DNA from: Halococcoides cellulosivorans
Lineage (GTDB): Archaea; Halobacteriota; Halobacteria; Halobacteriales; Haloarculaceae
Direction of reading: 5' to 3'
NCBI RefSeq assembly: GCF_003058365.1
Contig: NZ_CP028858.1
Coordinates: forward strand, 1,972,836-2,036,835
DNA: 64,000 bases
Positions 59,373 through 59,932 of the stretch are shown here, piece after piece. The notes below the pieces were generated by a model. The model had not been told where the DNA came from. It ran no database searches and saw only the letters and a program-made list of their open reading frames with translations. Position 1 is the first letter of the stretch. The number at the start of each line of letters is the position of its first letter. The position numbers were made by a program, and so were the translations under genes.

Positions 59373-59498
59373 CGCTGATAGTTACCCGTATATCGATAAA
59401 AATTGTTCGGACTCCGCCGTCGACAGCGATCGGTGCTTTCCTGACCGGGCCCCGGACACGTAACGCATTTATCGACGCGAGTGGGAGTATCGATACGC

Positions 59499-59690
59499 GC
59501 CAAGGTGGCAGCGTTCGGCCTCACGCAGCGGCCTGCAGTTCCGGAGCGCTAAAGCGCTCCGACCTTCGCGAACGCTTCGCGTTCGCTCAGTTCCCGCAGA
59601 CGGCCGCGCTCGTCGAGCTCGCGCGACCGACTGCCGACGTGCCGCCTCGCGGGACTCGGCGGCACAGGCGCCCACCGCCGGTTCAGACCA
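59499..59690 (+). pseudogene. broken tRNA-Cys copy with hairpin-rich insert
   Basis: Bases 59499-59538 match the 5' half of the intact tRNA-Cys at 59729 with only two differences and stop just after anticodon GCA and base 37. About 130 bp of unrelated, hairpin-forming DNA follows (perfect stems at 59542-59561, 59568-59586 and 59639-59665). A stretch at about 59668-59685 (CCCACCGCCGGTTCA) then matches the variable and T arm, after which homology ends; the 3' T-stem strand and acceptor strand are absent. A CATTTATC element lies 26-33 nt upstream. No functional tRNA can form as written. Confidence 0.8.
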
Positions 59691-59728
59691 AAATAGATAA
59701 CCCGCCAGACCGCAGACCTCTCACACGT

Positions 59729-59804
59729 GCCAAGGTGGCAGAGTTCGGCCTAACGCAGCGGCCTGCAGAGCCGCCCATCGCCGGTTCAAATCCGGCCCTT
59801 GGCT
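59729..59804 (+). tRNA. tRNA-Cys (GCA anticodon)
   Basis: Intact tRNA. The acceptor pairs GCCAAGG with CCTTGGC plus discriminator T. The anticodon arm is GCGGC-CTGCAGA-GCCGC with anticodon GCA, and the T arm GCCGG-TTCAAAT-CCGGC. CCA is not encoded. An A/T-rich AAAATAGATAA (59690-59700) upstream may be its promoter. The 3' end from 59781 on, together with flanking CTCTTCTGA, is repeated at 59902. Confidence 0.95.
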
Positions 59805-59901
59805 CTTCTGACTGAGCAGAGCGAACGAAGAGAGCAAAGCAGCCGGATTTGTAACCAGACGAGTCGAAGCTGCCAAGCGAAGCGAGACAGACCGTCTCGT
59901 T

Positions 59902-59932
59902 CCGGTTCAAATCCGGCCCTTGGCTCTTCTGA
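59902..59932 (+). repeat. 31-bp duplicate of the tRNA-Cys 3' end (att-like)
   Basis: The 31 bases at 59902-59932 are identical to 59781-59811, covering the T arm, the 3' acceptor strand and the next seven bases. Separation is 121 bp. Such duplications arise when an integrase inserts an element into a tRNA 3' end. No integrase gene lies between them, so this may be a remnant. A GCCAAG at 59872 upstream also pairs with the duplicated CTTGGC. Confidence 0.85.

Follow-up and report, generated by a model that had tools for sequence, protein, structure and literature searches.

The displaced tRNA-Cys half of the haloarchaeon Halococcoides cellulosivorans, together with the insert that interrupts it, is probably a decayed copy of a tRNA-Cys-derived module, which is the best explanation of the arrangement as a whole. 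The locus lies in a 64,000-nucleotide stretch (the window) of the 2,723,120-base chromosome, upstream of the single intact tRNA-Cys(GCA) that both ARAGORN and Rfam place near the module (Table 1). The original prediction had described a 40-nt 5' half with two mismatches that ends after base 37, a hairpin-rich insert of ~130 bp, a degenerate variable/T-arm match without acceptor strand and a TATA-like element upstream of the half, and our reanalysis bears out this anatomy throughout. The half agrees with the intact gene (59729-59804) at 38 of 40 positions, the insert between half and remnant spans 127 bp (59539-59665), and its three hairpins (59542-59561, 59568-59586 and 59639-59665) are real. 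The first two of these form a dispersed repeat and the third is hairpin B of the conserved module; a fourth, imperfect hairpin occupies 59595-59636. The remnant that follows consists of the anticodon-stem 3' strand, the variable region and the start of the T-arm; one mismatch in the anticodon stem breaks one pair, and the acceptor 3' strand is missing. An Rfam 15 scan of 11 loci returned only tRNA, 5S and LSU rRNA above the gathering score and did not match the module. Among the tRNA genes checked in the source genome, tRNA-Cys alone has a 5'-half copy, and the insert finds partial matches but no full second copy there.

Table 1 Features of the tRNA-Cys locus in the window
Feature	Position	Strand	Basis or detail
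TATA-like element P1 of the displaced half	59466-59474	+	CATTTATCG, 25-33 bp upstream of the half
tRNA-Cys 5' half, nt 1-40	59499-59538	+	38/40 identity to 59729-59768
48-bp two-hairpin dispersed repeat inside the module	59543-59590	+	TTCC on either side
Hairpin A of the conserved module	59595-59636	+	Fold and aligned arms
Hairpin B of the conserved module	59639-59665	+	Arms GTGCCGCC..GGCGGCAC; pairing in 8 aligned sequences
Degenerate remnant of tRNA nt 41-60	59666-59685	+	AGGCGCCCACCGCCGGTTCA matches nt 41-60
Promoter region P2 of the intact tRNA-Cys, within the module	59690-59704	+	Position and comparison with P2 of relatives
Intact tRNA-Cys (GCA)	59729-59804	+	ARAGORN (end given as 59805); Rfam 52.2 bits
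Inverted T-arm copy, pairs with the downstream 3' copy	59842-59856	+	
Exact copy of tRNA-Cys nt 53-76 plus 7 bp; separate downstream module	59902-59932	+	

A tRNA-Cys module in other haloarchaea

We searched 391 genomes of the class for a tRNA-Cys 5' half that is not followed by A38. Eight of them matched, each 170-230 bp upstream of an intact tRNA-Cys, and all eight read on with T after base 37. A covariance model built from six module-bearing genomes added a ninth (G366), in which the 5' half is eroded and the hairpins are still present. The total is therefore 9 of 391 genomes, the window included, from five haloarchaeal genera in three families, with Halorhabdus amylolytica and Salinarchaeum laminariae as the named carriers besides the source; broader searches of the three families produced no further module genomes. 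Covariance-model matches in two other genomes (G178 and G203) proved to be an intact tRNA plus a downstream hairpin and hence not the module. The module is rare and patchy in distribution, and its sequences align at 75-84% across genera. In Halorhabdus and G022 the locus comes after 5S rRNA; in the window this type of neighbour is absent, with no rRNA within 1.5 kb upstream of the locus. On the reverse strand of a Salinarchaeum laminariae locus (L043, ~700-790), a third, truncated module unit lies upstream of a tRNA-Cys array.

The order in relatives is P1, tRNA nt 1-40, hairpin A, hairpin B, tRNA nt 41-52, P2 and the intact tRNA. The window copy keeps this arrangement, masked by its 48-bp repeat. 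The limits of the module are 40-bp direct repeats of tRNA nt 1-40, and the unit between these repeats is 130-190 bp. The basic insert, which is 59 nt long in two Halorhabdus genomes and G022 and 62 nt in Salinarchaeum, reads TTC (TAC in G022), hairpin A, two bases and hairpin B, after which comes AGCCGCC, the anticodon-stem 3' strand. Other sequence stands in place of the module's T-arm, taking the form of a different hairpin in several genomes; immediately after it comes the promoter of the intact tRNA. No target duplication is seen at the G37/insert/A38 junction.

Comparison of closely related genomes indicates how the module comes and goes. G001 and G124 are 99.3% identical over 1535 bp of upstream flank; G124 has the module, whereas G001 is short of exactly one 174-bp unit, keeping P1 and the intact tRNA. 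Such a precise absence from a near-identical genome means that the module can be gained or lost precisely, and because the more distant G020 (92%) also has it, it is simpler to assume that G001 lost it via recombination between the two 40-bp repeats. P1 of G124 is the promoter of the empty site in G001, and in relatives generally the displaced half stands behind this empty-site promoter while the intact tRNA-Cys is served by a promoter within the module. A matching empty site for Halorhabdus amylolytica (G292) is found in G171, which is homologous to the P1 flank of G292; in G292 itself the TATA-like box of P1 is decayed.

We evaluated pairing in two alignments, one made with MAFFT and one of eight sequences restricted to the stem arms, in which N stands for the loops and the extra repeat is omitted. 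Seven base pairs are changed on both sides in the MAFFT alignment. The arms-only alignment, which was arranged around the structure and is thus more biased towards pairing than the MAFFT one, has 93.8% of cells paired and again seven pairs changed on both sides, counts that kinship among the sequences inflates in either alignment; none of 500 shuffles of the arms-only alignment reached either value. Hairpin B is paired in 100% of cells over the eight sequences, with both-side changes at 4 pairs. As judged from these alignments, the anticodon stem closes a module core of two hairpins, and compensatory changes are present. In RNA folding the relatives score well (z -3.1 to -4.8), but the window copy is unremarkable (z -1.6 to -1.7).

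Sequence constraint was assessed with p-values that serve as a guide, the regions and genome pairs having been picked after the sequences were inspected. Between two Halorhabdus genomes there are 5 differences in the 70 positions of the insert plus nt 41-51, compared with 69 in 232 for upstream flank plus leader (Fisher p 5e-5) and 18 in 64 for the spacer after the module (Fisher p 0.002). The insert is again more similar than the spacer when Halorhabdus is compared with G022 (p 0.007); for Salinarchaeum the same contrast is not significant (p 0.10). By these counts the Halorhabdus insert is conserved above its flanks. The least conserved modules are the window copy and that of Halorhabdus amylolytica, both of which carry the extra repeat and which share 85% identity in the half and 64% in nt 41-51.

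Dispersed repeats and tRNA 3'-end copies

The repeat inside the window module has a 31-bp core, CGACCYTCGC-hairpin-GCTCAG, that occurs in 9 copies in the source genome versus 1 for a reversed control pattern; the corresponding counts are 12 to 0 in Salinarchaeum laminariae and 6 to 0 in G057. A very similar extra repeat occupies the same insertion point in Halorhabdus amylolytica as in the window. Further copies, whose hairpin arms vary from one to the next, are present at L133, L142, L147, L150, L153, L159 and L161, and in the source genome most lie near tRNA genes, sometimes within the T-loop of a downstream 3' copy. When GCTCAG was considered as an IS605 end, inspection of the ORF lists by eye at three loci revealed no transposase ORF.

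Downstream of the intact tRNA-Cys lie two features that the original prediction did not include, a copy of the tRNA 3' end and an inverted T-arm copy (last rows of Table 1). About 20 tRNA genes of the source genome have a copy of their own 3' end ~60-270 bp downstream, with extra copies further out; no such copies were found upstream of tRNA genes in this genome. The copies (loci L089-L131) are on the same strand, exact or near-exact, and run from about nt 53 to the end; most have an inverted T-arm copy, specific to the tRNA in question, and a hairpin ahead of them, and there are four for tRNA-Tyr and three for tRNA-Ser(CGA). Partial tRNAs adjoining complete ones have been described in Haloferax gibbonsii (PMC7921747). 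We considered and rejected the idea that the upstream 5' part and the downstream 3' copy belong to a single gene that the intact tRNA divides in two, because Halorhabdus genomes have the upstream module without a downstream copy and because downstream copies occur in G053 and G019, where the module is lacking.

Elsewhere on the source chromosome, outside the window, G000:C1:2635124-2637955 (L120) holds a dense array of ~18 tRNA-like genes, of which several score under the Rfam cut-off; the array is perhaps of viral or other mobile origin. Three viral contigs (L086, L087 and L088) have a tRNA-Cys 3' end near one end of the viral sequence, with a short hairpin after it, which suggests that haloarchaeal viruses may often integrate at tRNA-Cys. 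Viral contigs with the anticodon-arm pattern are not modules: L080 is an intact tRNA-Cys and the others are unrelated sequence.

Origin of the module and competing readings

The module would have originated in one of two ways that give the same layout: either a segment comprising a promoter and tRNA nt 1-52, with two hairpins in its anticodon loop, recombined into the tRNA-Cys 5' half with a geometry like that of pTN3, or a promoter-plus-tRNA segment was duplicated in tandem and then received the hairpins. The 40-bp repeats would then have been homogenised, permitting precise loss, and the patchy distribution would follow from such losses. In the window copy, a dispersed two-hairpin repeat would subsequently have jumped into the module. 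Given its broken anticodon-stem pairing and the inserted dispersed repeat, the window copy has most likely become a functionless relic. The extra truncated upstream unit of Salinarchaeum laminariae, forming an array, also counts for the module explanation. Against it, no recombinase gene or parent element came to light, and searches of phage, plasmid and viral-contig sequences returned no module (no match in phages, weak fragments only in plasmids). At the left border, moreover, nt 40 is followed by sequence other than anticodon stem, in contrast to the minimal pTN3 site.

The degenerate state of the window copy might suggest chance similarity or a single random rearrangement, yet boundary, hairpin architecture and position are alike in nine genomes, the same boundary recurring in eight besides the window, and we regard this explanation as practically negligible. 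It is likewise very improbable that the locus is the decayed form of a tRNA-Cys gene that carried a large archaeal intron at 37/38, even though 37/38 is the canonical site and the insert is followed by a matching 3' segment. A test for a bulge-helix-bulge at the borders or up to 3 nt from them recovered the intron of the source genome's tRNA-Met as a positive control but was negative for all eight module sequences, and the supposed 3' exon ends at nt 52-60 in every genome, so that no copy could yield a tRNA. What stands of the earlier suggestion of a decayed tRNA with a large intron is thus the decay, evident in the broken stem pair, the lost T-arm and acceptor strand and the invading repeat. 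A second earlier suggestion, an element that targets the anticodon loop, survives in the break at 37/38 throughout, the exact empty site and the pTN3-type geometry (PMC8371274, PMC5495485), and falls short in recombinase and parent element. Cast as a remnant or minimal integrative element that uses the tRNA-Cys 5' half as attachment site and would be mobilised in trans by a tyrosine recombinase, it accounts for direct repeats that span nt 1-40 with the anticodon included, for promoter exchange with precise empty sites and for the tandem unit in Salinarchaeum. We nevertheless consider it a tentative alternative and on balance unlikely, given that the recombinase is absent, that none of the 391 genomes has a large element between the repeats, that viral, phage and plasmid collections yield none, that homologous recombination between the repeats explains the losses equally well and that the conserved nt 41-52 segment is superfluous to such a model.

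Another possible, though unlikely, reading is a functional tRNA-like small RNA, in which an anticodon stem with a two-hairpin junction would be transcribed from P1 and act in trans or as a tRNA-Cys leader. The seven pairs changed on both sides and the degree of pairing that no shuffle attained are consistent with it, as are the retention of P1 in several genomes and the conservation of the Halorhabdus insert over flank and spacer; insert conservation better than that of the flanks is unexpected for a pure relic. The module is, however, confined to 9 of 391 genomes and cleanly missing from very close relatives, the half is eroded in G366, the P1 box is lost in G292 and the copy in the window is decayed. 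Palindromes are moreover common and variable in these genomes, DNA-level repair could preserve pairing, and gene conversion may hold the 5' half identical. It is accordingly rather doubtful that the module of Halorhabdus and related haloarchaea would be a working small RNA from a truncated tRNA-Cys gene of which the window holds a decayed form, and we are just as hesitant about the predicted shape of that RNA, with the anticodon stem kept, the loop turned into a two-hairpin junction and the T-arm and acceptor strand dropped. Halorhabdus can be grown in culture, so a possible tRNA-derived RNA of this kind is open to testing there. Debates on the origin of introns and split tRNAs draw on disrupted and half tRNA genes of archaea, and with empty and occupied sites in nearly identical genomes one can directly track how a tRNA 5'-half module is gained and lost.

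Comparison with known systems

The module resembles archaeal tRNA introns at 37/38 in its anticodon-loop position and differs from them in having neither a bulge-helix-bulge nor a complete 3' exon. Caldiarchaeum has a mobile element next to which a 5' piece of tRNA-Thr is found upstream of the complete gene for that tRNA (PMC3293823). The likeness lies in this order of fragment and complete gene of one tRNA, attributed to a mobile element; in Caldiarchaeum, however, a 1.8-kb element with a recombinase gene lies in between and the tRNA has introns (PMC3293823). PATEs (palindrome-associated transposable elements) of Haloquadratum, of which 52-bp forms are known, are non-coding units of very small size that have a palindrome close to each end and do not duplicate their target (PMC3119063). 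The module likewise has near-terminal palindromes (hairpins A and B), no target duplication and no coding capacity, but unlike PATEs its hairpin pair is found at the tRNA-Cys position only.

Integration of the pTN3 type, known from Thermococcales, uses the 5' half of a tRNA gene (PMC8371274, PMC5495485); the attP and attB of pTN3 share 41 bp that include the anticodon, and integration cuts the tRNA off from its promoter (PMC5495485). The module departs from this type in having a unit of only 130-190 bp between its repeats, in lacking an integrase gene and in carrying tRNA nt 41-52 behind two hairpins. It shares with it a ~40-bp repeat of the tRNA 5' half with the anticodon, present as direct repeats, a displaced half upstream, an intact tRNA under another, new promoter, and an empty site in relatives.
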